Below, piece after piece: positions 4,670 to 31,720 of a stretch of 64,000 nucleotides of DNA (the stretch's first letter is position 1; each line of letters begins with the position of its first letter). The DNA is from an uncultured Parvularculaceae bacterium (GTDB lineage: Bacteria > Pseudomonadota > Alphaproteobacteria > Caulobacterales > Parvularculaceae). The notes below the pieces were generated by a model. The model had not been told where the DNA came from and ran no database searches. It saw nothing but the letters and a program-made list of their open reading frames with translations. Both the position numbers and the translations under genes were made by a program. The DNA lies in contig CAMYLZ010000022.1 in the NCBI GenBank assembly GCA_947259375.1, forward strand, positions 124,001-188,000, read 5' to 3'.

Positions 4670-4756
4670 TTCTTCACCACCCCTTTTCAAACGCATCGCT
4701 GGTCCAGCGACCTTATGGACCGGCGACCGCTCGATCAACAACCGTTCGTCCCGGCT

Positions 4757-4797
4757 CAAAAAACAACAACCCCGCCAGTATGAACCAACTGGCGGGG
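4757..4797 (-). terminator. Rho-independent terminator after the TonB receptor
   Basis: Perfect 10-bp stem (CCCCGCCAGT / ACTGGCGGGG, 4770-4779 with 4788-4797) followed on the minus strand by TTGTTGTTTTTT. It lies 36 bases after the receptor stop and ahead of the halogenase gene, so it should lower or block co-transcription. Confidence 0.85.
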
Positions 4798-14517: not shown

Positions 14518-15261
14518 ATGGCTGACACGAACCAGAAAAATCGCGTGCTTGTCACCGGCGGCGGATCCGGCATCGGCCTTGCTATCGCGAAAAAATTCAC
14601 CGAACGGGGAGACCAGGTCACGGTCGCCGGCCGCGATCCAAAAAAATTGAAAGCGGCCGGCCTTGATCATGTGATCATGGACGTTGCCGACCCGGCCTCC
14701 GTGCGCGCGGCCCTCGATCGCATCGGCGATATTGACATTTTCATTGCGAATGCCGGCGCCGCCGCGACCGCGCCTGCGCTGAAAACGACGCAAGACACCT
14801 GGGACAGGATGCTCGCCGTCAATCTGACTAGCGTGTATCTATGCGCGCAGGCCGCCATCCCCGGCATGGTTGATCGCGGCTGGGGGCGTTTTATCGCCAT
14901 CGCCTCGACAGCATCGCTAAAGGGCTACGCCTATTCCGGCGCTTATGCCGCCGCGAAACACGGCGTCCTCGGATGGATAAAATCGCTGGCGATCGAGCTG
15001 GCGAAAAGCGGCGTTACGGCAAACGCCATTTGCCCCGGCTTTACAGATACGCCGCTCATAGACAACGCACTCAATATGGTCGCCGCCAAGACAGGACGCG
15101 GCAAGGATGATGCGCTTGACGCATTCGTCAAAACGAACCCCATGGGGCGTTTGGTAAAACCCAGCGAAGTCGCCGCCGCCGCGTTATGGCTCGCTAGCGA
15201 CGAGGCGGCAGCCGTCAACGGGCAGGCGATCGTCATCGACGGCGGCGAGGTCGTTTCGTGA
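14518..15261 (+). CDS. Short-chain dehydrogenase/reductase
   Basis: Classical SDR of 247 aa. It has the NAD(P)-binding motif TGGGSGIG, the NAG motif (IANAG), catalytic Ser in the IASTAS strand, the YAAAK active-site pair and the C-terminal Rossmann segment ending GQAIVIDGGE. As first gene of an operon for CoA-linked aromatic degradation it probably oxidises a hydroxyacyl-CoA or cyclic alcohol intermediate formed after the monooxygenase/reductase step. It is probably translated from a leaderless or nearly leaderless mRNA. The exact substrate is unknown. Confidence 0.85.
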   Translation: MADTNQKNRVLVTGGGSGIGLAIAKKFTERGDQVTVAGRDPKKLKAAGLDHVIMDVADPASVRAALDRIGDIDIFIANAGAAATAPALKTTQDTWDRMLAVNLTSVYLCAQAAIPGMVDRGWGRFIAIASTASLKGYAYSGAYAAAKHGVLGWIKSLAIELAKSGVTANAICPGFTDTPLIDNALNMVAAKTGRGKDDALDAFVKTNPMGRLVKPSEVAAAALWLASDEAAAVNGQAIVIDGGEVVS

Positions 15262-15316: not shown

Positions 15317-15736
15317 ATGAGCCTGTATCGGCGCCAACACAAAGTCCGGTTTGCGGAGACCGATTATGCCGGCATCATGTTTTATCCCCGCTATTTCGAA
15401 GCGCTAAACGCAACGGTCGAGGACTGGTTCGCAGATGTTGCGCAGTGCCGGTTTGAAGACATGCTGGACGAATATGACGCCGGCACGCCGCTGGTTTCTG
15501 TCGAAACCGGCTTCATTAAACCCTGCCGTCTTGGCGATATTCTGACATTCACGCTGAAAGTGACATCGATCGGCAAAACCTCGCTGACTTTCGAGGCCGT
15601 GACAAGCTGCGGCGAGGAAACGCGCATGCGCGCGACGCTCACCCATGTTTGCGTCAAGCGCGATATTTCCGGCACGGCGCCCTGGCCGCCCGTTATCCGC
15701 GAAAGGCTGGCGGTCGCAATGGAGAATCAAGACTGA
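15317..15736 (+). CDS. Hotdog-fold acyl-CoA thioesterase (4HBT type)
   Basis: 139 aa, one hotdog domain of the 4-hydroxybenzoyl-CoA thioesterase family. The N-terminal ETDYAGIMFYPRYF carries the catalytic acidic residue in the DxxGxxYxxxY context typical of the family. Cytoplasmic. It lies between the SDR and the RidA gene, whose start overlaps its stop (TGATG). In this operon it could release an aromatic or ring-cleaved acid from CoA, or recycle CoA from dead-end thioesters. Similar thioesterases accompany 2-aminobenzoyl-CoA monooxygenase/reductase genes elsewhere. Confidence 0.82.
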   Translation: MSLYRRQHKVRFAETDYAGIMFYPRYFEALNATVEDWFADVAQCRFEDMLDEYDAGTPLVSVETGFIKPCRLGDILTFTLKVTSIGKTSLTFEAVTSCGEETRMRATLTHVCVKRDISGTAPWPPVIRERLAVAMENQD

Positions 15737-16146
15737 TGGCGCACAACCCTCTGCTTCCGGCCGGCTGGCCTCGACCCAAAGGCTACGCAAACGGCATCGC
15801 CGCCGAAGGTCGAATGGTGTTTACCGCCGGCGTCGTCGGCTGGACGAAAGATGAAGTCTTTGAACGGACGGATTTCGCAGGACAATTCGATCAGGCGATC
15901 GCAAATACCGTCGCCATCCTTGCGGAAGGCGGCGCACGGCCAGAACATATTGTCCGCATGACTTGCTACGTCACCAGCAAGAAAGCCTATCTCGGCGCCG
16001 TTAAGGAAATCGGCGCCATCTGGCGACGGCGCCTGGGCAAGGTCTTTCCCTGCATGGCGGTCATCGGCGTTGTCGAACTGGTTGAGGATGCGGCGTTGGT
16101 TGAGATCGAGACCACCGCGGTAATTCCCTCAAACTTCCCATCCTGA
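15736..16146 (+). CDS. RidA/YjgF-family protein
   Basis: 136 aa, full length for the Rid family of small trimeric enamine/imine deaminases. The ATG at 15736 overlaps the thioesterase stop. The 2-aminobenzoyl-CoA pathway passes through amino-cyclohexene intermediates, so a protein that hydrolyses enamines or imines fits here, and RidA homologues are known in such clusters. The C-terminal segment reads [18 protein letters not shown]: the arginine that archetypal RidA uses in the corresponding FPARS segment is replaced by methionine, so it belongs to a divergent Rid subgroup and activity should not be assumed. Confidence 0.82.
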
Positions 16147-16162: not shown

Positions 16163-17341
16163 ATGAATTCACTTCCGGATTTCGATTGGGCTGACCCGCT
16201 GTGCCTGAATGCTTCTCTTTCTGATGAGGAGATGATGGTGCGAAATAATGCCCACAATTATTGCCAAGGGCGCTTGACCCCGCGCATCCTCGAAGCGAAC
16301 CGGAACGAGGTGTTCGACCGCAACATCCTGCGCGAGATGGGCGAGCTTGGCCTGTTGGGCGCGACCATTGACGGCTATGGCTGCGCCGGCGCGAATTATG
16401 TCTCTTACGGATTGATCGCCCGGGAAGTCGAGCGCGTCGATTCGGGCTATCGCTCGGCCATGAGCGTGCAGTCGTCACTCGTCATGCACCCCATCCATGC
16501 CTATGGAACCGAAGCGCAACGCGAAAAATATCTGCCGAAGCTCGCCTCCGGCGAGTGGGTTGGCTGCTTCGGGCTCACTGAACCGGACGCCGGCTCCGAT
16601 CCGGGATCCATGAAGACCCGCGCATGCGCGACGGATGGCGGCTATCGCATCAGCGGTGCAAAAATGTGGATCACAAACGCGCCGATTGCCGACATATTCA
16701 TTGTCTGGGCGAAGACGGATGACGGCGTCATTCGAGGCTTTGTGCTCGAGAAAGGCATGGAGGGCCTTTCAGCGCCCAAGATCGAAGGCAAGTTTTCGTT
16801 GCGCGCATCCATTACCGGCGAGATCGTCATGGACGATGTTTTTGTGCCGGCAGAAAACCTTCTGCCCAATGTGGAGGGGCTAAAAGGACCGTTTGGTTGC
16901 CTCAATTCCGCGCGCTACGGCATTGCCTGGGGCGCTATGGGAGCAGCCGAGTTTTGCTGGCAGGCGGCGCGCGATTATGCGCTCGCGCGCGAACAGTTCG
17001 GCCGCCCTCTCGCCGCGACGCAACTAATTCAGAAAAAACTCGCGGACATGCAGACGGAAATCACGCTTGGCTTGCACGCCTGTTTGCAGGCTGGGCGTTT
17101 GCGCGACCAAGACAAACTCCATCCGGCAGCGATATCCCTGATCAAGCGGAACAGTTGCGGCAAGGCGCTCGATATCGCGCGTGCTGCGCGAGATATTCAT
17201 GGCGGCAACGGCATCGCTGACGAGTATCACGTCATTCGCCATGTCATGAATCTGGAAGCAGTCAACACCTATGAGGGAACGCACGATGTTCACGCCCTCA
17301 TCCTTGGACGCGCCCAGACCGGCGTCCAGGCGTTTTCGTAA
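16163..17341 (+). CDS. gcdH: Acyl-CoA dehydrogenase, glutaryl-CoA dehydrogenase-like
   Basis: 392 aa FAD-dependent acyl-CoA dehydrogenase. Several features point to the glutaryl-CoA dehydrogenase branch: [11 protein letters not shown] near residue 105, [15 protein letters not shown], and the C-terminal [17 protein letters not shown] with Glu371 as the likely catalytic base. The family converts glutaryl-CoA to crotonyl-CoA and CO2 with electron transfer to ETF. In this operon it would serve the lower part of aromatic acyl-CoA breakdown, though a cyclic acyl-CoA substrate is also possible. The glutaryl-CoA assignment rests on family resemblance. Confidence 0.82.
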
Positions 17342-17359: not shown

Positions 17360-19717
17360 GTGAAGATTACAGTCATCGGCGGCGGTCCCGGCGGCCTTTA
17401 TTTTGCATTGCTCTCGAAAAAGCGCATGCCGAATGCGCAAATCGACGTTTACGAACAAAACCGCTCTGACGACACTTTCGGTTTTGGCGTCGTGTTTTCC
17501 GACGAAACGCTCGACGAATTCTTTAACGCCGATCCTGAATCCTACGAGATGATCCGCTCTAATTTTGCGTATTGGAGCGACATCGTGATCGAGCGCGAAG
17601 ATGAGCGGACCGTGATCGGCGGCAATGGCTTCGCAGGGTGCTCTCGTAAAACGCTCCTGCAATTGCTGCAGAAACGTTGCCGTCAGGTTGGCGTGAAGCT
17701 TCATTATTCAGAAATGATCGATGTCGATACATTCGAACATCGCTTCGCTGACAGCGACCTCATAGTTCTCGCCAACGGCATTAATAGTCCAATGCGGGAA
17801 AAATACGCCGATGCATTCGGCGTCAAGTCGCAAACCCGGCCGAACTATTTTACCTGGCTCGGTTCCACGAAGCCGTTGGATGCGTTCACGTTTTTCTTTG
17901 AAAAGACCGAAAACGGGCATTTTTGCGCACATACCTATCAGTATGAAGATGGCTTTTCGACATGGGTGATCGAAACAACGCCTGAATGCTGGAAAGCAAG
18001 CGGCTTCGACCGGATGAGTGAAGAAGAAAGCGCACAATATCTCGAAACCGTGTTCGCTGATCGGCTCGACGGCCACAAGCTCATCACTAACCGTTCCGTC
18101 TGGCGCAATTTCCCCGTCATCACCTGCGAACGCTGGAGCCATGACAACATGGTCATGGTCGGCGACATCAAGGCGACGGCGCACTGGTCAATCGGTTCAG
18201 GCACGAAGCTCGCCATGGAATGCGCGATGTCGTTGTCGGATTGCATTGTCAATGCGCAAGGAAATGTCCTTGGCGCGCTCGAAAACTACGAAGAAGCGCG
18301 ACGCACACCGGTTGAAATAACCCAGCACAACGCCGCAGTTTCCTTGCGCTGGTTTGAGGACATGCCGATGCATTGGGACAAGGCGCAATATGAATTTGCA
18401 TTTTCGATCATGTCCCGCGCCAAGTCACTCACCTGGGACAATATCAAGCTGCGTGATGCGGCGTTTCTGGAAAAAGTCGAAAACGAATTTTACGAACGCT
18501 ATCGCACCAAGACCGGCCGCGACGTCGCCGCCGATCGTCCGACGCCGATGTTCACGCCGATTGATTTGCGCGGCCTTACCTTGGCGAACCGCGTCGCCAT
18601 GGCCCCGATGGCGCAATACTGTGCTGATCACGGCCGCCTAACGGACTGGCATTACACGCATTATCATGCGCGCGCGATTGGCGGCGCCGGCCTGATTTTC
18701 ACTGAAATGACTTGCCCGTCGGCGGATGCGCGTATCACGACCGGCTGCACCGGGCTTTGGAACGGCGACCAGGAGCAAGATTTTGCGCGTCTCGTCGACC
18801 TAATTCATAAAACGCCCGCTAAGATTGCGCTGCAACTTGGCCATGCTGGACGCAAGGGCTCGACAAAGACGCCTGCGGGCGGGATGGACATGCCGATGGA
18901 TGACGCCAACTGGCCGATTTTTTCAGCCTCGCCAATCCCTTATATCGACGGCGTTTCCCAAACACCCATTGAAATCGACCGCGTGCGAATGGACACGGTG
19001 CGCGACGAATTCGCTGCGGCGGCGAAGCGTGGCGCGCGCGCCGGCTTCGACATGCTCGAGCTGCATTGCGCGCATGGTTATCTTCTCGCGAGCTTTCTCT
19101 CGCCGCTCACAAACACCCGAACCGACGCCTATGGCGGCGATGCCGCGGCCCGCGCAAAATTCCCACTGGAAGTCTTCTCGGCGATGCGCGCCGTTTGGCC
19201 TGAAGATCGCCCCATGTCCGTGCGCCTGTCATCCAGTGACTGGGCCGAAGGCGGCCTGTCACTCGACGATCTTAAAACCATTGCCGCACTCTTCAAGGAT
19301 GCCGGCGTCGACATCATTCACTGCTCATCCGGCGAAACCGTCAAATGGCAAAAGCCCGTATATGGCCGCATGTGGCAGACGCCTTTTGCTGAATATGTCA
19401 AGCAACAGGTCGGCATCCCAACTATTGCGGTCGGCGACATCACCCTTCCTGAACAGGTCAACACGATCATTGCGGCCGATCGTGCAGATATTTGCGCCCT
19501 CGCGCGACCGCATTTGAATAATCCGTTTTTCACGCGGCAAGCCGCCGGCCATTACGGCGTAAAATCAGCCGCTGACGCCGCTTCTGGCTGGCCAGAGCAA
19601 TTGCGTTCCGGCGAATATCAGCTTTTCCGCGAGGCCGAAAAAGCGAATGAAAAAGCGCTCGAGCTTGCCCTCAAAGCGCGCCCCAACCGTCGCCATTATC
19701 AAAAAGCAGCCGACTAG
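17360..19717 (+). CDS. 2-aminobenzoyl-CoA monooxygenase/reductase-type fusion
   Basis: 785 aa two-domain flavoenzyme. Residues 1 to about 385 form a single-component FAD monooxygenase (GGGPGG near the start, GD motif in MVMVGDIKATAHWSIGSGTK). From about residue 394 the protein is an Old Yellow Enzyme-type FMN domain (TPIDLRGLTLANRVAMAPM, then HCAHGYLLASFLSPLTNTR). This architecture is that of the Azoarcus evansii 2-aminobenzoyl-CoA monooxygenase/reductase, which hydroxylates and then reduces the ring; databases often call it bifunctional salicylyl-CoA 5-hydroxylase/oxidoreductase. The start is GTG behind GGGAGGTAAAT; the overlapping ATG is followed at once by a stop. Whether the substrate is 2-aminobenzoyl-CoA or salicylyl-CoA needs testing; the RidA neighbour favours the amino compound. 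Confidence 0.85.
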   Translation: MKITVIGGGPGGLYFALLSKKRMPNAQIDVYEQNRSDDTFGFGVVFSDETLDEFFNADPESYEMIRSNFAYWSDIVIEREDERTVIGGNGFAGCSRKTLLQLLQKRCRQVGVKLHYSEMIDVDTFEHRFADSDLIVLANGINSPMREKYADAFGVKSQTRPNYFTWLGSTKPLDAFTFFFEKTENGHFCAHTYQYEDGFSTWVIETTPECWKASGFDRMSEEESAQYLETVFADRLDGHKLITNRSVWRNFPVITCERWSHDNMVMVGDIKATAHWSIGSGTKLAMECAMSLSDCIVNAQGNVLGALENYEEARRTPVEITQHNAAVSLRWFEDMPMHWDKAQYEFAFSIMSRAKSLTWDNIKLRDAAFLEKVENEFYERYRTKTGRDVAADRPTPMFTPIDLRGLTLANRVAMAPMAQYCADHGRLTDWHYTHYHARAIGGAGLIFTEMTCPSADARITTGCTGLWNGDQEQDFARLVDLIHKTPAKIALQLGHAGRKGSTKTPAGGMDMPMDDANWPIFSASPIPYIDGVSQTPIEIDRVRMDTVRDEFAAAAKRGARAGFDMLELHCAHGYLLASFLSPLTNTRTDAYGGDAAARAKFPLEVFSAMRAVWPEDRPMSVRLSSSDWAEGGLSLDDLKTIAALFKDAGVDIIHCSSGETVKWQKPVYGRMWQTPFAEYVKQQVGIPTIAVGDITLPEQVNTIIAADRADICALARPHLNNPFFTRQAAGHYGVKSAADAASGWPEQLRSGEYQLFREAEKANEKALELALKARPNRRHYQKAAD

Positions 19718-19815: not shown

Positions 19816-21201
19816 TCAGCCAGGCAGGAACACGCCGACCAGGATCGACAAGATCGCGATCGGCGCCAAAAAGCGCACTGAAAAAAGCCACGCCTTGTGC
19901 AACAAAGGCGCCGTGCGCAATTCGCCAGCGCTAACCGCCTTGGGCACGATCCATCCAACGAGGAGAACAATCAGCAGACCATTGAGCGGCAACAAAACAC
20001 TAGCGATTGTGAAATCAACGAGATCAAAAAGCCCCTTATCCTTCATGATCGCCAGCGCTGTAACCGGACGAAAATCATGCAAGATATTGAACGACAATGC
20101 GATCACCGCACCGACCGCCCACGCACTCGCGCCAACGCAAATGGCCGCCTTCGGGCGCGAAACACCCCTGCCGACAAGCCAGGCGACAACCGGCTCCATC
20201 GTGCCGATGCCCGTGGTCAGCGCGGCAAAAAACAAAAGCAGAAAGAACCCAACGCCAACGAATGCGCCGCCCTGCATGTTTTCAAATGCGGTCGGCAGAG
20301 TCACGAAGATCAATCCCGGCCCCTGATTCACGTCAAGGCCGTTGACGAATACCAGCGGAAAAATGGCCAGCCCCGCCAGGATCGCAACGAGCGTGTCCGC
20401 CAGAACCACGCCGCCAGCCGTTTTGGTCAGTGACGCGCCATCGTCCAGATAAGAGCCAAATGTCATCAAGGCCCCGATACCGATGGCGAGTGAGAAAAAC
20501 GCCTGCCCCACGGCAAGAAGCACGAGCTCAACACTCATCTTGCTGAAATCGGGACTGAACAAGAACTCAACGCCCTTTTGGAATTCGCCATAGATCGCCG
20601 CATAAACGACAAGCCCTAACAGCATCAGGAACAGCAACGGCATGAAAATCTTCGCCGTCCGCTCAACGCCGGCATGAACGCCGCGGCCGACAATAAACGC
20701 AACACCGGCCATGAAGACCGCATGCCAGAACTGAAGTCGCAAGGGAGACGCCATCAACGCATCGAAATGATTGCTCATTGCGCCTGCGCCGCCGCTCAAC
20801 CCGCCAAGCGCGAGATACCGCGCCAGGTAATCGAGGATCCAACCGGAAACGATGCTGTAATAGGCGATGCCGACAAATGGAATGAAAACGCTCAACCCGC
20901 CGATGACCATCCAGCCCCGACTGGCGCCATGCGCCTTGATCAGCGTCGCCACTGACCGGACCGGCCCGCCGCGCCCTCGCCTGCCCGCCAGCAATTCCGC
21001 CATCATGATCGGCAATCCGATCAGCAAAACGGTCGCCATGTAAATCAACAAAAAAAGTCCGCCGCCGTTTTCTCCCGCGATAAAGGTGAAACGCCAGATA
21101 TTGCCGAGCCCCACCGCCGTGCCCGCTGCCGTCAGGACAAAAGCGAGATTTGACGACCAGCGGTCGCTGACGGCGGGCTTTGACGAATTCGTAGGGCTCA
21201 T
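19816..21201 (-). CDS. Sodium:amino-acid symporter, NSS family
   Basis: 461 aa inner-membrane symporter of the neurotransmitter:sodium symporter (LeuT) family. The first helix has GTAVGLGNIWRFTFIAGENGGG, the family signature with the unwound substrate/Na site. About 11-12 transmembrane segments follow. Bacterial members include the tryptophan transporter TnaT, so an aromatic amino-acid substrate fits the surrounding indole/aminobenzoyl genes, but specificity is not readable. I choose the ATG at 21201, just before this first helix; a longer in-frame start at 21321 would run into the divergent MarR gene. It shares an 86-bp promoter gap with that regulator. Confidence 0.88.
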   Translation of the reverse strand: MSPTNSSKPAVSDRWSSNLAFVLTAAGTAVGLGNIWRFTFIAGENGGGLFLLIYMATVLLIGLPIMMAELLAGRRGRGGPVRSVATLIKAHGASRGWMVIGGLSVFIPFVGIAYYSIVSGWILDYLARYLALGGLSGGAGAMSNHFDALMASPLRLQFWHAVFMAGVAFIVGRGVHAGVERTAKIFMPLLFLMLLGLVVYAAIYGEFQKGVEFLFSPDFSKMSVELVLLAVGQAFFSLAIGIGALMTFGSYLDDGASLTKTAGGVVLADTLVAILAGLAIFPLVFVNGLDVNQGPGLIFVTLPTAFENMQGGAFVGVGFFLLLFFAALTTGIGTMEPVVAWLVGRGVSRPKAAICVGASAWAVGAVIALSFNILHDFRPVTALAIMKDKGLFDLVDFTIASVLLPLNGLLIVLLVGWIVPKAVSAGELRTAPLLHKAWLFSVRFLAPIAILSILVGVFLPG

Positions 21202-21287
21202 TTTATACCTTTGCCGAAAATCAAGATAACAAAACCGTTTTATCAAGTCGCGCATCAAGCGCGCAATGAAAGTGAGGAGGCGCGGCG

Positions 21288-21785
21288 ATGACAAGAGCCA
21301 GATCTGTGTCCGCTGCTTCAAAGCGCGGACAAAAAGACGAAGAAATTTCTGACGAATGGCTTGAGGAGTTCATCCCGTACACTTTCTACCGGATCACGAG
21401 CAAACTGAACCTATTGTTGAGTGACAATTTGCGGGCCGTGAAAGTATCGAAAGGACGCTGGCGCGTCATGTCGGTCCTTTATCCGCACAAAAAACTGAGC
21501 ATCAATGAAATCGCAGACGCAACCATCATGAATCAGGCAACCGTCAGCCGGGTCATCAACCAAATGGAACGCGACAAGCTGGTCATCCGGGAAAACCCCG
21601 CCCATGACACGCGCATTTTCCTGATCAGCCTCAGCAAGACCGGACAGTCGCATTTCAAATCGCTCCACGCCAAAGCGAGCAAGCATGAAGGCATTGCGCT
21701 CGAAGGGCTCAAAGCGTCCGAATTGCGGCAACTGAAATCCTATCTGCAAAGAATCACGGACAATATCGAAGCGCAACTGAAGTAA
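21288..21785 (+). CDS. MarR-family regulator
   Basis: 165 aa winged-helix regulator with the MarR core: KLSINEIADATIMNQATVSR (recognition helix), then a wing with NPAHDTRIFLISLSKTG. An AGGAGG Shine-Dalgarno precedes the ATG. It diverges from the NSS symporter and is therefore likely to control it and itself, probably responding to an aromatic acid or CoA thioester. It and the second MarR gene at 27523 are the two candidates for binding the palindromes at 24176 and 24311. Confidence 0.88.
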   Translation: MTRARSVSAASKRGQKDEEISDEWLEEFIPYTFYRITSKLNLLLSDNLRAVKVSKGRWRVMSVLYPHKKLSINEIADATIMNQATVSRVINQMERDKLVIRENPAHDTRIFLISLSKTGQSHFKSLHAKASKHEGIALEGLKASELRQLKSYLQRITDNIEAQLK

Positions 21786-21855: not shown

Positions 21856-24102
21856 CTAGAATGATTTGCGGACAAGAACGCCATAGCTACGCGGCGGTAC
21901 GGCAATGTGCGAGACCGGGTCCTGCGCGCCATTGATAAAGATGTCCGACAACTCGACATCATTGGCGATGTTTCGCGCATATAACCGGATGTCCAAGCCT
22001 TCATTACGCAGGCTGAGGCTTAGATTGACCAGATCGCTCGACGGCGCCGTGGCGAAGTTGTCATTCGGCGAGCCGTCAAGAAGCAAAGGATTGAAATCGA
22101 TATCGAATTTGCCGCGATGCGTGTAGTCGATGCGGAATTCCCCGCCCCAATCCGCATTCAGGTCGAACGAATAGATCGCACCGAGATAGGCGGAGAAATC
22201 CGGAACATTGGGGATCGGATCACCGCTCCGGCCGCTGGCGCCAGGGCTTGATGGCTGGTCTTCCTTTAGCTCCGCATTGGTTATCGTGGCCGAGGCTACG
22301 AATTCGAGATTATCCGTAGGCTCAATGCTGCCCACAGCCTCAAGCCCGAGAATGCGCGCCCGGCCAGCATTGGTGAAGAACGAAAAGCCGGAATTGAAAT
22401 CCTGGTTCTGGATTTCCGACCAATTCATCCGGTATCCGGCAATTTCAAGCTTGGCCCGCCCGTCGGCGAAACTGGTCTTCGCGCCGACCTCATAAGAGGT
22501 TACATTGTCCGACTCGAAAGTGGGCGGAATGACAACGCCAGTAAAGCCCGGGCTGTTGACGCCGCCCTGCCGAAAGCCGGTCGCAGTTTCAAAATAGAGG
22601 GTTATATCGTCGGTCGGCTTGTATGATGCATTGGCGCGGTAGGTGACGCCGTCTTCATCGCCTTTCAACTCCAACGGGGCGAGCTCGTCGCCGGTGACGA
22701 AATCATGAATCACCTGCGCCTTGCTGTCGATCGACGCGCTAAAATAGCGCAGACCGCCAGTGACCGACAGCGAGTCCATAAGGTCGACCGTCACCTCCCC
22801 GAATATCGCTTCCTGGTCGCGCCGATCCAATAGCGTGCGACCGAAGAATGTGGCCCCGCCTGCAAAAAAGTCATTCGCCGGCCCGGCCGCGAAAGGCGCC
22901 AACGCCCGGCCGTCCGCATCGGTTGCGATCACCAATGAGGCGAAGTTCGCCTCTTCCCGCGAAAGAAATCCGCCGACGACGAAATTAACCGGACCATCAA
23001 GCGTGGAAGCGAACCGTAATTCCGACGTCCACAACTCCCGGTCCTGCGGCTGCTGCGTGAGAGCGGCTGCATTCACGCCAAAGAAGAAAAGAATGGGCGA
23101 CGAATCGAAAGCAAAATCAATTTCTCTATCATAAAGATTGGTTGTCGCCGTAACGACACCGAAATCCGTCGTCCATTCGGCAAGGCCGCTCAGAATATAA
23201 AGCTCTTCGTCCCAGGGGTTTCGCGTAAACTCCGTATTCACATAATCGCCGCCGAGAATAGGCTCGAGACCCGGCTCACCAGGCACGCCCGCGCCTAAAA
23301 CGCCTTCGGGCGTAAACCGGTTTGAGCCGCCGGATTCCACTGACTGATAGGTTCCGGTGGCCAGGAATTTGAGATTGTCCGTCGGCTCCACGGCAAAGTG
23401 CAGCCGCCCGCCATAGGTTTCTTCATCATTGATGTCTTTAATGCCAAGGCGCGGGTTGTCGACAAAGCCGCCGTCTTTTTGATACCAGGCCACGGCGCGC
23501 AAGCCGGCCACGCCCTCGACCAAGGGCGCATTGAACATACCGGCGAAATTATATCCGCCTTCACCGCCGCTGACATTCGACGCGCCCGCTTCAAGCCAGC
23601 CGCTCATCTCGTCGAGCTGCGGCTTATTGGTGATGAACCGGATTGTACCCGTCATGGAATTGGCGCCGTACAGCGTACCTTGCGGCCCCTTCAATACTTC
23701 CACCTGTTGAATATCATACAACTTGATGTCCGCATTGCGGCCGCCGCCATCTTGCTCGAACCGGCCGGTGATAACCGCTTCGTCATAATAGACCCCAACC
23801 GTGGCGTCTCCGGATGAATTGACGCCGCGAAGAATATACTCTTTGTCGCCCGGCCCCAGATCCTCGAAATTGAGACCCGCGACGGTCGGCGCGAAATCCG
23901 CAAAATCAAACGCGCCCAGCGAACGCAGATCATCCTCGCCAATGGCCTGGATTGTCTGCGGAATATCCGAGGCGTCTGTCGCGCCGCGCTTTGAAGCCGT
24001 GACAACAATCTCATCGTCCGCGTCTTGACCAAGCGCCGGCGTCGTTACCAAGGCGATTAACGCGCTTGACGCCCATAACGCCGCACTCCATGACTTTTGC
24101 AT
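21856..24102 (-). CDS. TonB-dependent receptor of the aromatic island
   Basis: 748 aa outer-membrane TonB-dependent receptor. A signal peptide ends TTPALGQ, followed by the TonB box DEIVVTASKRG, a plug with VEVLKGPQGTLYGANSMTGTI (split as VEVLKGPQGTLYG and ANSMTGTI) and a barrel ending in phenylalanine (GVLVRKSF). The ATG at 24102 follows GGAAGGAA and gives a proper signal peptide; an in-frame start seven codons upstream is less likely. It is a different receptor type from the maltodextrin one and resembles those of sphingomonads that import small aromatics or siderophores. It diverges from the CDGSH-cupin gene with shared palindromes between, linking it to the island. Confidence 0.88.
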   Translation of the reverse strand: MQKSWSAALWASSALIALVTTPALGQDADDEIVVTASKRGATDASDIPQTIQAIGEDDLRSLGAFDFADFAPTVAGLNFEDLGPGDKEYILRGVNSSGDATVGVYYDEAVITGRFEQDGGGRNADIKLYDIQQVEVLKGPQGTLYGANSMTGTIRFITNKPQLDEMSGWLEAGASNVSGGEGGYNFAGMFNAPLVEGVAGLRAVAWYQKDGGFVDNPRLGIKDINDEETYGGRLHFAVEPTDNLKFLATGTYQSVESGGSNRFTPEGVLGAGVPGEPGLEPILGGDYVNTEFTRNPWDEELYILSGLAEWTTDFGVVTATTNLYDREIDFAFDSSPILFFFGVNAAALTQQPQDRELWTSELRFASTLDGPVNFVVGGFLSREEANFASLVIATDADGRALAPFAAGPANDFFAGGATFFGRTLLDRRDQEAIFGEVTVDLMDSLSVTGGLRYFSASIDSKAQVIHDFVTGDELAPLELKGDEDGVTYRANASYKPTDDITLYFETATGFRQGGVNSPGFTGVVIPPTFESDNVTSYEVGAKTSFADGRAKLEIAGYRMNWSEIQNQDFNSGFSFFTNAGRARILGLEAVGSIEPTDNLEFVASATITNAELKEDQPSSPGASGRSGDPIPNVPDFSAYLGAIYSFDLNADWGGEFRIDYTHRGKFDIDFNPLLLDGSPNDNFATAPSSDLVNLSLSLRNEGLDIRLYARNIANDVELSDIFINGAQDPVSHIAVPPRSYGVLVRKSF

Positions 24103-24175
24103 AATAAATTCCTTCCCTACCACGCTTACGCGGACAATTCCCTGACGCGCCGGTTTCGAGGCCGGCCTCCCGATG

Positions 24176-24367: not shown

Positions 24368-25420
24368 ATGAGCAAAGCTGAAATTGCCGGTAAGAAGCCC
24401 TGTTATCGCAGGTTGGAAAAAGGCCGCAAGTACCTTTGGTGCTCTTGCGGCCGCTCAAAAACGCAACCTTTCTGCGACGGCTCACACAAGGGAACCGATT
24501 ACATGCCTGTGCCCTACAGGGCGCAGGTTGAAGGTGAAGAAGTTCTGTTTTGCCTGTGCAAGCAGACCCGGACACCGCCATTCTGTGACGGATCGCACAA
24601 CAACCTGCCGGGCGCATATGAAAATGATGACCCCAACAGCGCGGCAAATCGGGCGATCGAGACTGTCGAACGCGCGCGAGACGCAAAAACCGCCTTGGAC
24701 GGCCAATGCTATATCTTCGCGCCTGATTGCGGCGCAGCCTCGGACCTCGGCGGCGCGCAGATTGTTCGCATAATTTCACATGAGCAAGGCGCTCAACACC
24801 AGTCATTGTTTCGAGCAACAATTGCGCCTGGCGCGTCATCTGTTTTTTCCCTCGGCGACCGCAACGGCATGCTATTTATTAGCGATGGTGAGGGGCGCAT
24901 CAATATCGGCGGACGCGTCTTCGATTTTTCAAACCTCGACAGCGTCCTTATCCGGCCGGGCGACGATTTCCGCATCGAGGCGACCGCAAGCGTAACGCTG
25001 TTCATCTCCGCCTGTCCGGCCATCGCCGCGCCGATCATCAAACCACAAATTGAAACAACATTCGATGACGAATATCCGGCGCGGATCGCAAAAGTCGATG
25101 CGGCTAAGCGCAATGAAATGGCCGACCGCTTCTTCCAGGTGCTGATCGATAAATCGATGGGGTCCGAAACCGCGACGCAGTTTATCGGGCACATTCCGCT
25201 GTCAAAAGCACAGCCGCACCGCCATCTCTACGAAGAAGCGTTGTTGATTCTCAGCGGCGAAGGCGTGATGTGGACCGAGACACGCAAAGCCGCCGTCAAA
25301 TCCGGCGACGTTATTTTCTTGCCGCAACGCGAATTGCACTCGCTTCAATGCACGGACCAAGCCGGCATGGATGTCGTTGGCGTCATCTATCCGGGCGATA
25401 ACCCGGCCGTGAACTACTAA
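24368..25420 (+). CDS. Double CDGSH iron-sulfur / double cupin fusion protein
   Basis: 350 aa. Two perfect CDGSH [2Fe-2S] motifs lie at the N-terminus (Cys25, Cys27, Cys36, His40 and Cys62, Cys64, Cys73, His77). Two cupin-like domains follow. The first (about 115-215) has no metal-binding histidines. The second (about 250-345) has a full HRHLYEE motif with the spaced Gly and a second motif ending PQRELH, so it should bind one metal. The ATG at 24368 is the first plausible start. It begins a unit with the aminotransferase 50 bases downstream. No function is established; a metal-dependent oxygenase acting on the island's aromatic substrate, fed by the iron-sulfur clusters, is one inference, and a sensor or storage role is another. 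Confidence 0.8.
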   Translation: MSKAEIAGKKPCYRRLEKGRKYLWCSCGRSKTQPFCDGSHKGTDYMPVPYRAQVEGEEVLFCLCKQTRTPPFCDGSHNNLPGAYENDDPNSAANRAIETVERARDAKTALDGQCYIFAPDCGAASDLGGAQIVRIISHEQGAQHQSLFRATIAPGASSVFSLGDRNGMLFISDGEGRINIGGRVFDFSNLDSVLIRPGDDFRIEATASVTLFISACPAIAAPIIKPQIETTFDDEYPARIAKVDAAKRNEMADRFFQVLIDKSMGSETATQFIGHIPLSKAQPHRHLYEEALLILSGEGVMWTETRKAAVKSGDVIFLPQRELHSLQCTDQAGMDVVGVIYPGDNPAVNY

Positions 25421-25470: not shown

Positions 25471-26640
25471 ATGAAATGGCCCGCAACCCGCATCAGCGAC
25501 AGCTCTCCAAAAAGCTTCGGGATGTATGAAAAGGCCGCTGCGCTGGCTGAAAACGGCGCTGACATTATTCACCTTGAAGTGGGCCGTCCGAGCTTCGACA
25601 CGCCCGAATTCATCAAGGACGCAACAAAAAAAGCCCTTGACGACGGCATGGTCCATTATGGGGACTTCGCCGGCGAGCCGGCGTTGCGCGAAGAAGTTGT
25701 TCGAAAAGTCCGTAAAAAGAATGATCTCGACATTTCGCCCGACAATGTTCTCGTCACAAACGGACTGACGCATGCATCCTACGCCGTCATCATGGCGGCG
25801 ATCGACCCCGGCGACGAAGTTATTTTGCTGGAACCCTATTACCCGCAACACATCAACAAAATTGAACTTGCCGGCGGCAGGATCGTTAAAGCCGCCCTCA
25901 ATAAGAGCGACAATTTTACAATCGATCCGGAAGCGGTCGAAGCTGCAATAACACCAAAAACCAAGATGATCTGCCTCGTCAATCCGGCCAATCCGACGGG
26001 CCGCGTCTATTCGCGGAAAGAGCTGGAGGCGCTGGCGGATATCGCCATTCGCCATGACCTCCTGGTGCTATCCGATGAGGTGTATGAAGAGATCGTCTAT
26101 GACGGTAACATGCATATTTCCATTGCGTCTTTGCCGGGCATGTTCGAGCGCACTTTCAGCCTTTTTGCATTCACCAAAGCTTATGCGATGGATGGATGGC
26201 GCCTTGGCTTTATCGTCGCCGATGCGCGCTTTATGCCGGCGCTGAAAAAAATCACCGTCAACGACGTCGCGCATGTAAACGTCTTTATTCAGATGGGCGC
26301 GGCCGCGGCGCTGGCGCAAGGGGGAGAGGTCGTGCGCGAGATGGTCGCCGAAGACAAAAGGCGACGCGACCTCGTTTGCCAGCGACTCAATCAAATGTCA
26401 GGAATTCATTGCCCTGCATCCGAGGGCACGATTTATGCGTTCCCGGACATTACGACGACCGGCCTTAGCGCCCAGGAAATTGCCGACGGCTTGCTTGAAA
26501 ACGCGCATGTCGTTGTCGAGGCCGGCACGTTTTATGGAGATGCAGGAGAAGGCCATATCCGCGTTTGCTTCGGCGCCGAGCCTTACGAACGGATCGACGA
26601 AGCCCTTGATCGCATGGCGACCTATTTCTCTAATCTGTAA
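25471..26640 (+). CDS. Class I/II aminotransferase (PLP)
   Basis: 389 aa fold-type I aminotransferase. Characteristic segments are NPANPTGRVYS, LSDEVYEEIVYDG and FTKAYAMDGWRLGF with Lys236 as the likely Schiff-base lysine. GGAG precedes the ATG. It follows the CDGSH-cupin gene in the same direction. With an indolepyruvate oxidoreductase encoded close by, the simplest role is conversion of an aromatic amino acid to its 2-oxo acid (tryptophan to indole-3-pyruvate), with 2-oxoglutarate or pyruvate as acceptor. Substrate is inferred from context only. Confidence 0.85.
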   Translation: MKWPATRISDSSPKSFGMYEKAAALAENGADIIHLEVGRPSFDTPEFIKDATKKALDDGMVHYGDFAGEPALREEVVRKVRKKNDLDISPDNVLVTNGLTHASYAVIMAAIDPGDEVILLEPYYPQHINKIELAGGRIVKAALNKSDNFTIDPEAVEAAITPKTKMICLVNPANPTGRVYSRKELEALADIAIRHDLLVLSDEVYEEIVYDGNMHISIASLPGMFERTFSLFAFTKAYAMDGWRLGFIVADARFMPALKKITVNDVAHVNVFIQMGAAAALAQGGEVVREMVAEDKRRRDLVCQRLNQMSGIHCPASEGTIYAFPDITTTGLSAQEIADGLLENAHVVVEAGTFYGDAGEGHIRVCFGAEPYERIDEALDRMATYFSNL

Positions 26641-26684: not shown

Positions 26685-26729
26685 TGAAAAAATGCGTTCT
26701 CGCTTAACCATCAACAAGCGCGAGAACGC
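26685..26729 (-). terminator. Rho-independent terminator of the ior operon
   Basis: Perfect 10-bp arms GCGTTCTCGC / GCGAGAACGC (26694-26703 with 26720-26729), followed on the minus strand by ATTTTTTC. The stop codon of the hydrolase gene lies inside the loop, so coding and terminator overlap. Confidence 0.8.
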
Positions 26730-27477
26730 GCAGCGGGCTGCCCGAACCATCTTTGATCTTGAGGGGCGTTGACACAATAACAGCGCCCTTCGCCGGCAAT
26801 TGGTCGAGATTGCGCAGGCATTGCAGGCCGTATTTGCCCGCACCGTGCAGAATATTGTGGGCCGGATAAGGCGGATCGAACGCCCCGCCCTTGCCAGCGT
26901 CCGTACCAATTGTTTCAACGCCAAGCCCGTGAACATTGCGCTCTTCCACGAGATACCGGACAGCGCTCGTGTCTGGGCCGGGCGTATGCGCGCCGTCTTC
27001 ACGAACATTGGCGTATTCGAGGCCGCTGCGTTTTGACCAATCTGTGCGGAACAGCACCCAATGATCAGCAGGGATCGCGCCGTGCTCCGCTTCCCACACC
27101 TTGATATGTTCCGCAGTCAGAATGAAGTCCTCATCGGCGGCGGCCTCTTTTGAAAAATCCATTACGCAGGCCGGCCGGATGAAGTGATCCGGCCTGATCG
27201 TATCCACCGATCCGTTCGGCACGTCCTTGCCGGTCACCCAATGCACCGGCGCATCGAAATGCGTGCCCGTATGCTCGTTGCAACTGAAATTGCGCCAATA
27301 CCACGCCGGTCCGCGTTCGTCATACTTTGAGACTTCTTCGATACGGAACGGTTCGCACTGGCCGAATTCCGGCGGCAGGACCAGCACTGGAAATTCCGGG
27401 TCGAGGGTATGCGTGAGGTCAATGACCTTCACATTGCCGGTCAATAGCGCCGAACCGAAAGACTCCAAAACAGACAT
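26704..27477 (-). CDS. Kynurenine-formamidase-like cyclase-family hydrolase
   Basis: 257 aa metal-dependent hydrolase of the cyclase/KynB family. The signature HTGTHFDAPVH (residues 69-79) supplies the metal-binding His69, His73, Asp75 and His79. KynB removes the formyl group from N-formylkynurenine; other members hydrolyse related amides or lactones. It is last in the iorA-iorB-marR operon, behind GGGAGC. If the indole ring is opened by a dioxygenase in this pathway, an N-formyl-anilide would result, and this enzyme could remove the formyl group. That role is inferred; no kynureninase or tryptophan 2,3-dioxygenase is in the window. Confidence 0.82.
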   Translation of the reverse strand: MSVLESFGSALLTGNVKVIDLTHTLDPEFPVLVLPPEFGQCEPFRIEEVSKYDERGPAWYWRNFSCNEHTGTHFDAPVHWVTGKDVPNGSVDTIRPDHFIRPACVMDFSKEAAADEDFILTAEHIKVWEAEHGAIPADHWVLFRTDWSKRSGLEYANVREDGAHTPGPDTSAVRYLVEERNVHGLGVETIGTDAGKGGAFDPPYPAHNILHGAGKYGLQCLRNLDQLPAKGAVIVSTPLKIKDGSGSPLRVLALVDG

Positions 27478-27522: not shown

Positions 27523-28014
27523 TCACGCGGACTTTTTATTCTCGCGCCCGGTTTCATATGGTGAGCGCTCAAGATTGGCGCGAACGCGCTTCAACACTTT
27601 GGTGACGACGCCGAGGTCTCGTGGACTCGTTCCCTCAAAGGCGCGCTCAAAAACACGCTGACCGATCGCCTTAACCTCCCGTAGCGTTTTTGCTGCGCGG
27701 GGGGTCATCGTGATCTCAACAAAGCGCCTGTCGTCTTGCGGCGAACTGCGCACCACCAGCCCATCCTCTTCCATGCGCGTCAAAATCCGCGTCAATGTCG
27801 GCATCTTTGTTACAGACCGGCGCGCGAGCTCGCTCACCGAGCTCGGACTTGAGTCAGTCAGCAACATCAATATCCGCCATTTCATCGTATTAAGACCGTG
27901 CGACTTCAGCGCGGCAGACATTTTTTCATTATAGGTCGCAGCCGTACGATTGAGGTTGTAGAGGACATAGTCGTCAAGCACGAAGTTTTTGTCAGCCGGT
28001 CCGACCTTCTTCAT
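27523..28014 (-). CDS. MarR-family regulator (second)
   Basis: About 163 aa. MarR winged helix with SVSELARRSVTKMPTLTRIL as recognition region and a wing DDRRFVEITMT. I place the start at the ATG at 28014, which has GGGGAGGGAGC upstream; an earlier GTG at 28041 overlaps the iorB stop and is also possible. Embedded in the operon between the oxidoreductase and the hydrolase, it probably senses a pathway intermediate and regulates the island, possibly through the palindromes at 24176 and 24311. Confidence 0.85.
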   Translation of the reverse strand: MKKVGPADKNFVLDDYVLYNLNRTAATYNEKMSAALKSHGLNTMKWRILMLLTDSSPSSVSELARRSVTKMPTLTRILTRMEEDGLVVRSSPQDDRRFVEITMTPRAAKTLREVKAIGQRVFERAFEGTSPRDLGVVTKVLKRVRANLERSPYETGRENKKSA

Positions 28015-28037
28015 CACTGACGCTCCCTCCCCGCCCT

Positions 28038-29567
28038 TCACGCTGCGGCCTTGTCGTTTGCCGCCATGGCGGCGAGCGCCGCGCGCAACGCATTGCCATG
28101 CTCGTCCTGCAAAGCCGCCTCCCGCAGGGATCTCAAGCAGGAAGACGAAGCAGGCTTTTCGGCCACGGCGTCTATCGCTGAAAAAATCGAGCGGTAATTG
28201 CCAAACCCGCGCTCATGCGTTTCGCCATAGCCCTTGATCAATTCCTGAAGCTTGGTGATTTCTATCGAGAGATCATAGTCGCGCGGCGCGATTGCGAGGA
28301 TTTTTTCAAACCACTCTTCAATCCGCGCATTTTCCAGGGCAAAACGAAAGCTCGACCGCCGAAGGAAGCGCGCGGATGCTAGGAGATATAAAGGGATAAA
28401 ACCGCGTAAACGGGTCGTTGGAATACGCTTGCCGCCACCCAGAACGGCTTGCAATCCTCGCCGTAAAATCGGGCTGTTCAGGATCGTTTTCGCAAGAAAC
28501 GCCGGCAATATATCGCATACTTCTTCGACTCGCGGGTGAAGGAATTCATAGACGTCAACGATCTGGCCCGCCTCGGCTCGCACATCCTGCTTGAAGCGGT
28601 CAAAGCGCGCGCCTCGGGTCTTTAGATCCGCAACCCGAATGGAGTCTTCATAGCTCATCCAAAGCGCCAGATGCTTCGCCGCCGCCTGCGTCAGGCGCCA
28701 ACCGCGCGCCGCACCGCCGGCTTCGCGATCGGCGGCGAGCACTTTTGCCACACGCTCAAGATAAAGCCCCGCATAGGCCGTATCCTGAAAATCAGAAACG
28801 CGCTTTATTCCCTCACCGACATAGAATCGCACCGCCTCGGGAAACACCTGCAATGCAGCTAGCGCCGGCGCGCCGGCTTCATCATGCATCGCCACCATGC
28901 CGTCCGCCTCCGCCGCTCCTGGCCCGTCATCATTGGCGCTGCCGGCGGCAAACGCCACCCCGAAGGCGAAGCCGCGCAAATTTTGCTCAACAGCGCGACC
29001 GCCGGCTTTTATCCGATCCTCAAAACATGCGCGGTCAATCGGCAAGGCGCCCGAACCTGCTAGCGCGCCGAACAAAACGGCGCTGATCATTGTCCCGGCC
29101 TCGGTCGCCGCGGCGGCCATGTCGCCGGCAATCACGGTTTTTGCTGCCGCGTGCGCCGCCTCAAGAATCTGCGCCGCATCGCGGCGGCCGTCGCCCATGC
29201 CTGACTTTTCCGAAATCGCATAGTCGCGATGTGTCGAAGCTATCAGCACAGTCTGACCAGTGACGAAACCGCGCGTGATCGCCCGGCCCGCTTCCATCAT
29301 TTCAGCGGCGATGACGATATCGACATCGCCCGGCACCGGCATCAGAGCAAGAACGGGCTCTTCAGCGCGCGCCTCAGCCGCTTTTTTTGGGAACAGTTCG
29401 ATGTAATAAACCGTCGCGCCGGTGCGCTGCGCGACACCCGGCACTGACGTTGTTTGTGCAATGAAACCGTTTTCCTCGCCGAGCTTGCCAATCCAGCCCG
29501 CCAGCACGCCGCCGCCCTGCCCTCCGAGAGCGGTGATAGCGATTCGGATAGAACGCGCCGGCGTCAT
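28038..29567 (-). CDS. iorB: Indolepyruvate ferredoxin oxidoreductase, beta subunit (extended)
   Basis: 509 aa. The N-terminal 190 or so residues correspond to the gamma/beta domain of 2-oxoacid:ferredoxin oxidoreductases (TALGGQGGGVLAGWIG, then SVPGVAQRTGATVYYIE). The remaining 300 residues are an extra helical region found in proteobacterial IorB proteins and absent from the ~200-aa archaeal ones. It pairs with IorA to oxidise arylpyruvates with CoA to aryl-acetyl-CoA and CO2. Its ATG overlaps the iorA stop by four bases (ATGA). The acceptor in an aerobe is unclear; a ferredoxin or ETF-like partner is not encoded next to it. Confidence 0.88.
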   Translation of the reverse strand: MTPARSIRIAITALGGQGGGVLAGWIGKLGEENGFIAQTTSVPGVAQRTGATVYYIELFPKKAAEARAEEPVLALMPVPGDVDIVIAAEMMEAGRAITRGFVTGQTVLIASTHRDYAISEKSGMGDGRRDAAQILEAAHAAAKTVIAGDMAAAATEAGTMISAVLFGALAGSGALPIDRACFEDRIKAGGRAVEQNLRGFAFGVAFAAGSANDDGPGAAEADGMVAMHDEAGAPALAALQVFPEAVRFYVGEGIKRVSDFQDTAYAGLYLERVAKVLAADREAGGAARGWRLTQAAAKHLALWMSYEDSIRVADLKTRGARFDRFKQDVRAEAGQIVDVYEFLHPRVEEVCDILPAFLAKTILNSPILRRGLQAVLGGGKRIPTTRLRGFIPLYLLASARFLRRSSFRFALENARIEEWFEKILAIAPRDYDLSIEITKLQELIKGYGETHERGFGNYRSIFSAIDAVAEKPASSSCLRSLREAALQDEHGNALRAALAAMAANDKAAA

Positions 29568-31720
29568 CGCCCTGCTCCGCCAAATTGAGCGTTGGCCTGT
29601 CGCTCAGGGCGCCGTTGCAAATATCCGATGACGGCGCGGCGGAGCGTCGATAAAAATCTGTCGATCCGGTTCGGATTATAGACCAGCTCCGCCCGATAAA
29701 AGGACGGGCACAATATCGCGGCATGGGCGTTCTCACCGCATACGCCGCACCCGACGCAATCATTGTTCACCCAGGCGACGGGGTGATCGCGCAACGGATC
29801 CGGATTATCGCGAACAGTCAGCGATGGGCAGCCGGACAACCGGATGCAGCTATGATCTCCCGTACAGGTGTCCGGATCGACGCCATATCGCGCCCTGACG
29901 ACCCGTTTTCCTTCCTTGATTACCTTTGCGCGAAGCGGCTTTTCCCGGCGCTGGCGGTTCAGCATGCACTCAGCTTGGGCGATGATGACTTTGGGCCCCT
30001 TTGTTGCAGTCGTCATCGCATCCTTCAGCGTCTTTTTCATTTCGCCAATATTGTACGTATGCACCTCTTTTAACCACTCGACGCCGAGCCCTCGCACGGC
30101 CTTGGCGATCGGGTTGTTGGTGCTCCGCGTCTTGTTCACCGCGCGCGATGACAAGATATCCTGCCCGCCCGTCGCCGCCGAATACCCGTTGTCGATGATA
30201 ACCAGCACATTGTCGGTCTTGTTAAAGACCGCATTGCCGACGCCGCTGGTCAGCCCATTATGCCAGAAACCGCCATCGCCCATCACCGAGATCGTTCGCT
30301 TGCCGGCATTCGCATTGAGCGCAGAGGCGCCGGCCCATCCAAGCCCGTAGCCCATGGTCGTATTGCCGATATCGAAGGGCGGCAGGATAGAAAACAAATG
30401 ACAGCCAATATCGCAGCTTACATGAAACGTCCCGATCTCTTTTTCGACCAGTTTCATCGCCGAAAACACGGGCCGCTCTGGACAGCCGGTGCAAAACCCT
30501 GCCGGACGCGGCGGAACCGCCTCGGCAATCGCCGCGTTTTTTTCCGCAGGCAGCGCCGACTCACGCGGCGCGGGTGCGGCGGCGAGCAAGGAGGGCGCGT
30601 GCGTGGCGAAAAACTTGCGCAGCCCTTCGCCGATCACCTGCCCCGTATACTCACCGGCTTTCGGCAGCACGCCCTTGCCGACGACTTTGGTTTGAATATC
30701 TGCATTACGTAAAATCGCGTTTACCGATTGCTCGATATATTCCGGCTGACCTTCCTCAAGCATCAAGACCGCTTTCTTATCGAGACAAAACCCTTTCAGC
30801 TCGTCGTCAATCAGCGGGTAGGCGACATTCAGACAATAGATCGGGATTTCCGTCTCGCCGAACGGGTCGGCAAGCCCCAACAACTCAAGCGCCCTGATCA
30901 ACGAGTTATAAAGACCGCCTTGCACGATGATTCCGACGTCGCCCTGATATCCTCCAAGAAATTCGTTGAGCATCCGGGACTTGATGAACTCGACCGCCGC
31001 CGGCCAACGATTTTCAATCTTTTCAACTTCATGAACGAAGTTTGACGGCGGCAACACCACCCGGCTGTAATCGCGTTCCGGATTCTCGATAGCGTTTTTC
31101 AGTGTAAAGGACGGCGCCGCATTATTCTTCGCTTCAAACGCCCCGTAAACGTGACAGGCGCGGATGCGCAACTCCAGCATGACAGGCGTGTTGGATGCTT
31201 CCGACAACTCAAAGCCGTCCTCGACCGCCTTCACAATCGAAGTCAGGTTTGGCCGCGGATCAAGCAACCACATTTGCGACTTCATCGCGAAGGCGTGCGT
31301 GCGCTCTTGCATGATGGACGAGCCTTCGCCGTAATCCTCGCCAACGATCACCAGCGCACCGCCTTTCACGCCGCTCGACGCTACATTTGCGAGCGCATCC
31401 GAAGCGACATTGGTGCCAACCGTCGACTTCCAGGTAACTGCGCCCCGCAATGGATAATTGACCGACGCGGCCAGCATCGCCGCCGCTGTCGCTTCTGACG
31501 CACTCGCTTCGAAATGAACATTCAGCTCTTCGAGAATGCCCTGCGCGTCCGACAAAACGTCCATCAGATGCGATATCGGCGCGCCTTGATAGCCGCCGAC
31601 GTAAGACACGCCCGACTGCAACAACGCCTTGGTGACGGCAAGGATGCCCTCGCCGCGAAACACTTCCCCTGCCCCGATGCGGAGGTCCTCCACTTCTTTT
31701 TCAAAGGATCTTTCAGCCAT
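29564..31720 (-). CDS. iorA: Indolepyruvate ferredoxin oxidoreductase, alpha subunit
   Basis: 718 aa. N-terminal pyrimidine-binding region (GGYQGAPISHLMDVL), central ThDP/Mg2+ motif (GDGGFWHNGLTSGVGNAVFN), and a C-terminal ferredoxin-like segment with cysteine groups TCTGDHSCIRLSGCP and DCVGCGVCGE plus a further Cys, suitable for [4Fe-4S] clusters though the first group departs from the usual CxxCxxCxxxCP. It catalyses ThDP-dependent oxidative decarboxylation of indolepyruvate or other arylpyruvates to the acetyl-CoA derivative. It is first gene of the operon and starts behind AAGGTAAG. These enzymes are oxygen-sensitive in archaea, so its use here suggests an aerobic-tolerant type. Confidence 0.88.
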   Translation of the reverse strand: MAERSFEKEVEDLRIGAGEVFRGEGILAVTKALLQSGVSYVGGYQGAPISHLMDVLSDAQGILEELNVHFEASASEATAAAMLAASVNYPLRGAVTWKSTVGTNVASDALANVASSGVKGGALVIVGEDYGEGSSIMQERTHAFAMKSQMWLLDPRPNLTSIVKAVEDGFELSEASNTPVMLELRIRACHVYGAFEAKNNAAPSFTLKNAIENPERDYSRVVLPPSNFVHEVEKIENRWPAAVEFIKSRMLNEFLGGYQGDVGIIVQGGLYNSLIRALELLGLADPFGETEIPIYCLNVAYPLIDDELKGFCLDKKAVLMLEEGQPEYIEQSVNAILRNADIQTKVVGKGVLPKAGEYTGQVIGEGLRKFFATHAPSLLAAAPAPRESALPAEKNAAIAEAVPPRPAGFCTGCPERPVFSAMKLVEKEIGTFHVSCDIGCHLFSILPPFDIGNTTMGYGLGWAGASALNANAGKRTISVMGDGGFWHNGLTSGVGNAVFNKTDNVLVIIDNGYSAATGGQDILSSRAVNKTRSTNNPIAKAVRGLGVEWLKEVHTYNIGEMKKTLKDAMTTATKGPKVIIAQAECMLNRQRREKPLRAKVIKEGKRVVRARYGVDPDTCTGDHSCIRLSGCPSLTVRDNPDPLRDHPVAWVNNDCVGCGVCGENAHAAILCPSFYRAELVYNPNRIDRFLSTLRRAVIGYLQRRPERQANAQFGGAGR

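Follow-up and report, generated by a model that had tools for sequence, protein, structure and literature searches.

A conserved CDGSH-cupin fusion family tied to bacterial indole catabolism and its possible role as an oxygenase

The window analysed here, a 64,000-nucleotide stretch of DNA from an uncultured Parvularculaceae bacterium, encodes a protein of 350 amino acids with a CDGSH-CDGSH-cupin-cupin architecture (24368..25420, plus strand; ATG at 24368, stop at 25418-25420). This fusion is a real, conserved, and recurrent family, apparently undescribed so far, and its tie to indole catabolism is well supported. Judged from its sequence and neighbours, the protein may quite possibly be an oxygenase that acts in a Rieske-like manner on a tryptophan-type indole (tryptophan itself or indolepyruvate), as the first step of a breakdown that leads into an isatin route.

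The N-terminal part contains two CDGSH motifs, at residues 25-40 (24440..24487, plus strand; CSCGRSKTQPFCDGSH; ligands C25, C27, C36, and H40) and residues 62-77 (24551..24598, plus strand; CLCKQTRTPPFCDGSH; ligands C62, C64, C73, and H77). Both match C-X-C-X2-(S/T)-X3-P-X-C-D-G-(S/A/T)-H, and their Cys3His ligands show no variation in 51 aligned relatives. CDGSH clusters are redox-active. The Pfam matches comprise zf-CDGSH (PF09360; E 1e-17, two stretches, above the curated cut-off), Cupin_2 (PF07883; E 3e-13, two stretches), and AraC-type ligand-binding cupins. Cupin 1 (about residues 100-216 in the predicted fold; 24665..25015, plus strand) is degenerate, since no ligand set is kept in the aligned relatives and E199 is the only conserved metal-type residue. 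Cupin 2 (about residues 249-345 from conservation and fold; 25112..25402, plus strand) has the 3-His/1-Glu metal site that cupin 1 lacks, and its ligands H284, H286, E290, and H324 are equally invariant in the 51 relatives. An earlier note on this DNA, made from the letters alone, had described two perfect CDGSH motifs with one degenerate and one intact metal-binding cupin, and this description holds in full.

The AlphaFold model of the protein (mean pLDDT 93, pTM 0.88) gives a confident bicupin fold, with the intact ligand set in cupin 2. Residues 93-350 align with solved bicupins at Z 20-23.5 over about 220-245 residues. The closest solved folds are ureidoglycine aminohydrolase (1sfn, 4e2q), oxalate decarboxylase, and quercetin dioxygenase (1y3t, 2h0v), with about 1.5 Z units at most between them, so that the reaction cannot be read from the fold by itself. 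The quercetin dioxygenases align at Z of about 22, and an equally good alignment is obtained with ureidoglycine aminohydrolases and with oxalate decarboxylase, none of them oxygenases. All of these enzymes share the two-barrel fold, but they are only 8-16% identical to the fusion protein, have no Fe-S domain, and catalyse other reactions. The CDGSH half (residues 6-80) can be aligned over its full extent with double-CDGSH proteins (PDB 3tbn; human CISD3, 6avj), both motifs being intact; in contrast, those proteins are stand-alone, and CDGSH-only loci lack the catabolic neighbours. The CDGSH-glutamate synthase-like fusions (L015, L024) resemble the present protein in having a CDGSH module joined to an enzyme domain, and differ in the catalytic domain. 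The same two genes recur as L042 and L044, where a double CDGSH module is joined to a glutamate synthase-like domain in a fusion that is likewise uncharacterised. Pfam gave no match in the fusion protein to the Rieske domain (PF00355), the ring-hydroxylating catalytic domain, or the TDO and IDO heme folds (PF03301, PF01231), and no DNA-binding or signalling domain was found in it.

In a scan of public genomes, full-length relatives numbered more than 50; they come from alpha- and gammaproteobacteria and from one bin labelled Acidobacteria, most of them on MAG contigs. Eight full-length relatives align to the protein end to end with 37-51% identity. Given these whole-length alignments and the size of the family, the reading frame is neither a chance fusion nor chimeric. 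The CDGSH and cupin domains are each found by domain search, and no Pfam or NCBIfam model covers the whole architecture. In the literature searched, CDGSH and cupin appear together in one unrelated study only, and the combination of CDGSH and dioxygenase returned nothing relevant. The claim that the two domains are not usually joined stands as far as tested, yet the combination is recurrent. The family was not seen to be widespread beyond aromatic clusters in a known non-catalytic role, a finding that would have spoken against the earlier reading. In the tree, the window copy clusters with the MAG-derived sequences L045, L048, and L050 of the PGDNP subfamily, whereas its genus and family mostly have copies of the other subfamily, and for this reason it was probably acquired laterally. 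By identity (63-70%), the nearest relative has decayed (L093 10001-10721, the same as L040, in genome G129): cupin 1 is gone, and the frame shifts between the CDGSH portion and cupin 2.

The gene lies in an island with recognisable catabolic functions. A PLP enzyme with an aminotransferase class I/II fold (25471..26640, plus strand) follows the fusion gene on its strand after a gap of 50 bp. Its best NCBIfam score is to GntC (315 bits, below the cut-off of 415), and genes 61-63% identical to it occur near four other family members. The minus strand carries the order IorA-IorB-MarR-isatin hydrolase, comprising an IadA-like IorA-type subunit (29564..31720) and an IadB-like IorB-type subunit with POR and DUF6537 domains (28038..29567), which are proposed as the alpha and beta subunits of an isatinate oxidoreductase, a MarR regulator of the isatin operon found by profile search (27523..28041), and the 'cyclase' gene at 26704..27477. 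The last is, on sequence grounds, an IadI-like isatin hydrolase: it matches isatin hydrolase A (PDB 5nnb) at E 1e-119, and its translation has the H-x-G-T-H-x-D-x-P metal motif of that family as HTGTHFDAPVHW. Upstream on the plus strand, profile searches identify a short-chain dehydrogenase (14518..15261), a 4HBT thioesterase (15317..15736), and a lower-pathway acyl-CoA dehydrogenase (16163..17341). They are accompanied by a RidA-type protein of uncertain start codon (15649..16146, plus strand), which clusters with an L066 gene matching Ribonuc_L-PSP, and by a protein of the 2-aminobenzoyl-CoA monooxygenase/reductase type (17360..19717, plus strand; PRK08255, 980 bits against a cut-off of 1078). 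Between these genes and the fusion lie a neurotransmitter:sodium symporter-type (NSS) amino-acid transporter (19816..21321, minus strand), which adjoins the fusion gene in many relatives, a second MarR-type regulator (21288..21785, plus strand) of the same cluster as the one at 27523, and a TonB-dependent receptor-like gene (21856..24123, minus strand), recognised by sequence inspection and homology, with homologues in 20 of 55 family loci.

Isatinate (2-aminophenylglyoxylate) is an alpha-keto acid, and a 2-oxoacid:ferredoxin oxidoreductase would thus yield 2-aminobenzoyl-CoA from it, the substrate of the enzyme at 17360-19717. This conversion is proposed for the IorAB of the island. The 'indolepyruvate oxidoreductase' of the window is iad-like and fits isatinate at least as well as indolepyruvate. 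According to PMC9613470, iad loci, which are marked by IorA/IorB-type genes (IadA/IadB), convert indoleacetate to anthranilate by way of isatin and isatinate. In a 2025 preprint (PMC12633357), the first step belongs to IadCDE, a Rieske-type monooxygenase with a [2Fe-2S] cluster and mononuclear iron, and IadI is annotated as a formamidase. The preprint also revises the early iad intermediates, so even in iad the exact substrate of the hydrolase may differ from isatin. The portions available of these two sources assign no step to IadA/IadB. The window island contains the lower iad part, namely IadA/IadB (COG4231/COG1014), MarR, and an isatin-handling amidase, where the IadA/IadB equivalence is drawn from annotation and identity among database proteins and not from alignment to the Variovorax genes.

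The association extends beyond this island. In a sample of 200 genomes of the order, which are not phylogenetically independent, an iad-type IorA occurs in 17 and isatin hydrolase in exactly the same 17, which suggests that the oxidoreductase at 28038-31720 acts on isatinate. The fusion gene occurs in ten genomes (one copy decayed), all within these 17 (Fisher P 9e-13), and the other seven have the isatin module without it. Within the family of the window, the module is present in 9/9 genomes with the fusion gene versus 6/32 without it (P 1e-5); within the genus the figures are 5/5 versus 5/12, with P only 0.04. Since the fusion and isatin-module genes are far apart or on different contigs in several genomes (G005, G035, G055, G089, G144), the association is more than shared operon inheritance. 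Two of these (G055, G144) have both the fusion gene and iad-like upper-pathway genes.

Neighbour counts within 10 kb, which are lower bounds, show a PLP enzyme near 36 of the 55 family loci: a kynureninase-like class V enzyme in 23, a true kynureninase in 13, and the class I/II type of the window in 5. Among the same loci, 2-aminobenzoyl-CoA monooxygenase occurs in 13, IorA in 11, isatin hydrolase in 10, and NSS in 16; a core made up of IorA, IorB, isatin hydrolase, and 2-aminobenzoyl-CoA monooxygenase is represented by one or more of its genes in 19. Neither a PLP enzyme nor this core was seen in 15, many of them short. None of the 26 CDGSH-only loci has PLP enzymes, 2-aminobenzoyl-CoA monooxygenase, IorA, IorB, isatin hydrolase, or NSS. 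In the cultured Novosphingobium sp. KACC 22771, NSS, a class V PLP enzyme, the CDGSH-cupin gene, IorB, IorA, and isatin hydrolase lie within 20 kb. The class I/II and class V types are mutually exclusive among these loci, which is suggestive only. Cysteine desulfurase was considered for the class V neighbours and rejected: they do not conserve the catalytic cysteine of SufS, and their C-terminal region aligns with kynureninase. Neighbours and co-occurrence together bear out the earlier placement of the gene in an indole/2-aminobenzoyl-CoA catabolic island.

In the proposed mechanism, cupin 2 would bind iron and add O2 to indole C2/C3, giving a 3-hydroxy-2-oxindole (dioxindole) derivative, an isomer of N-formylkynurenine. 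The CDGSH clusters would pass electrons to the cupin iron, either in every turnover in a Rieske-like manner or merely to hold it ferrous. The PLP enzyme (class I/II here, class V in many relatives) could then release the three-carbon side chain by a retro-aldol-type cleavage to leave isatin. Isatin hydrolase would convert isatin to isatinate, IorAB would convert isatinate to 2-aminobenzoyl-CoA and CO2, and 2-aminobenzoyl-CoA monooxygenase and the beta-oxidation genes would complete the breakdown. The wider claim is more doubtful, namely that the protein represents a new self-contained oxygenase class, in which CDGSH [2Fe-2S] clusters serve a cupin iron as a Rieske counterpart of unrelated fold, on an undescribed tryptophan-to-isatin route through a dioxindolyl intermediate, PLP cleavage, isatin hydrolase, and isatinate:ferredoxin oxidoreductase. 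If true, the Rieske-style pairing of an iron-sulfur centre with a mononuclear O2-activating metal evolved a second time, from other domains, and CDGSH proteins would have a clear catalytic role. A tryptophan route via isatin is also suggested, together with a job for the iad IorA/IorB proteins.

The earlier note took the fusion for the only gene of the island without a step and saw oxygenative ring cleavage as the step left open. The fusion is indeed the best candidate for a missing oxygenation: the window contains no homologue of the sister-genome Rieske gene described below at 14.3-34.4 kb, and its whole genome gave neither a TDO nor an IDO. Other genes of the island had gone unrecognised in the note, chiefly the isatin hydrolase. 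Ring opening by the cupin also falls away in the preferred reading, where isatin hydrolase would open the pyrrole ring hydrolytically. Indoleacetyl-CoA, the substrate suggested earlier, was demoted once the 'cyclase' matched isatin hydrolase.

Related loci have a Rieske oxygenase in the corresponding place. In a genome of the same genus without the fusion gene (G020), the order is IorA-IorB-MarR-CoA ligase-thiolase-...-isatin hydrolase-SDR-Rieske alpha-Rieske beta, and the Rieske gene has the Rieske-oxygenase Pfam match that the fusion protein lacks. On an Azospirillum plasmid the order is IorA-IorB-reductase-Rieske-beta-...-2-aminobenzoyl-CoA monooxygenase. The family loci showed no homologue of the G020 Rieske gene; they bear PLP enzymes and transporters for amino acids (NSS, amino-acid permease) instead. 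Such a swap is as expected if the Rieske enzyme acts on indoleacetate, with removal of the side chain through CoA, and the CDGSH-cupin protein on an indole with an amino-acid side chain, with removal by PLP. A Rieske feeder was seen in only one of the seven isatin-module genomes without the fusion gene. The fusion protein resembles IadCDE in its companions (iad-type IorA/IorB, MarR, and an IadI/isatin-hydrolase-like gene; PMC9613470 and PMC12633357) and presumably in combining [2Fe-2S] clusters with a mononuclear metal to start the oxidation of a 3-substituted indole. It differs in having no Rieske or ring-hydroxylating domains and in carrying Cys3His CDGSH clusters and a cupin metal site on one polypeptide. 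At its loci the side chain would be handled by PLP enzymes and not through CoA ligase and thiolase, and no dedicated reductase was found for it. It may well work like IadCDE, but it stands outside the IadCDE family.

On a Caballeronia sp. SBC1 plasmid (L183 4407-24387), the genes for isatin hydrolase, IorAB, and 2-aminobenzoyl-CoA monooxygenase are accompanied by a class V PLP gene and by a gentisate-like cupin, and there is no CDGSH-cupin gene. The cupin of this plasmid was rejected as a counterpart of the fusion protein: it has no CDGSH, does not match the fusion protein in BLAST at E 1, and, sitting with a fumarylacetoacetate hydrolase, reads as a lower-pathway dioxygenase.

The strongest competitor, though itself unlikely, is a non-heme replacement of TDO. 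The fusion protein would cleave indole C2-C3 to N-formylkynurenine, a hydrolase would remove formate, and kynureninase or its class V relative would give anthranilate. TDO and IDO, heme proteins of a fold unrelated to the fusion protein, would then share its substrate and its kynureninase-like pairing. The true kynureninases and class V relatives at the family loci fit this ring opening, one kynureninase lying directly upstream of the fusion gene in L053, and the C-terminal domain of kynureninase occurs in 39/44 genomes with the fusion gene. Divergent TDOs are likewise paired with class V relatives in other genomes. TDO is absent from 20/44 fusion-gene genomes, that of the window included, but it is present in the other 24, and in the family of the window genomes commonly have KynU but neither TDO nor IDO, even where the fusion gene is missing. 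The absence of TDO was therefore rejected as proof, and the lack of TDO and IDO supports either reading weakly. The genome of the window moreover keeps a separate KynB-KynU pair, and the strict link of the fusion gene to isatin hydrolase and IorA would be left unexplained by TDO replacement.

It is less probable still that the protein is a non-oxygenase cupin of the same pathway (hydrolase, isomerase, or decarboxylase), with CDGSH serving for stability or as a redox switch. The restriction of bicupin metal ligands to the C-terminal cupin and the top alignments with ureidoglycine aminohydrolases and oxalate decarboxylase favour it, but the oxygenation step of the island would have no candidate and the invariance of both cluster motifs no explanation. 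It is improbable that the protein carries electrons for IorAB or 2-aminobenzoyl-CoA monooxygenase, or serves either as a redox chaperone, with a cupin that merely binds a ligand. IorAB-type enzymes require an electron acceptor, and IorA is found in all ten CDGSH-cupin genomes of the order sample. Seven IorAB genomes nevertheless manage without the fusion gene, PLP enzymes are commoner than the core genes at the family loci (36/55 vs 19/55, many PLP loci having no core gene nearby), and the metal site of cupin 2 is fully conserved. A sensor of redox state, iron, or indole, akin to the second idea of the earlier note, is hardly to be expected. The AraC-type Pfam matches and the redox activity of CDGSH clusters would suit it; positive support was not obtained, the protein has no output domain, its partners are enzymes and transporters, and regulators of the MarR or TetR type are already present in the island and its relatives.

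A few further loci were noted. On another contig of the window's genome (L133 9121-11023; G000 contig C7), KynU lies beside a classical KynB-type formamidase gene. With no TDO or IDO match in this genome, nor in several relatives without the fusion gene, another source of tryptophan or kynurenine must exist for such KynU-KynB pairs. In other genomes of the order (G184:C275, G084:C4, and others), a divergent short TDO-like family adjoins kynureninase-like class V genes. Within the window, two putative flavin-dependent tryptophan halogenases, recognised by eye at 1614-4759 between sugar-utilisation and TonB genes, are unrelated to the indole island.
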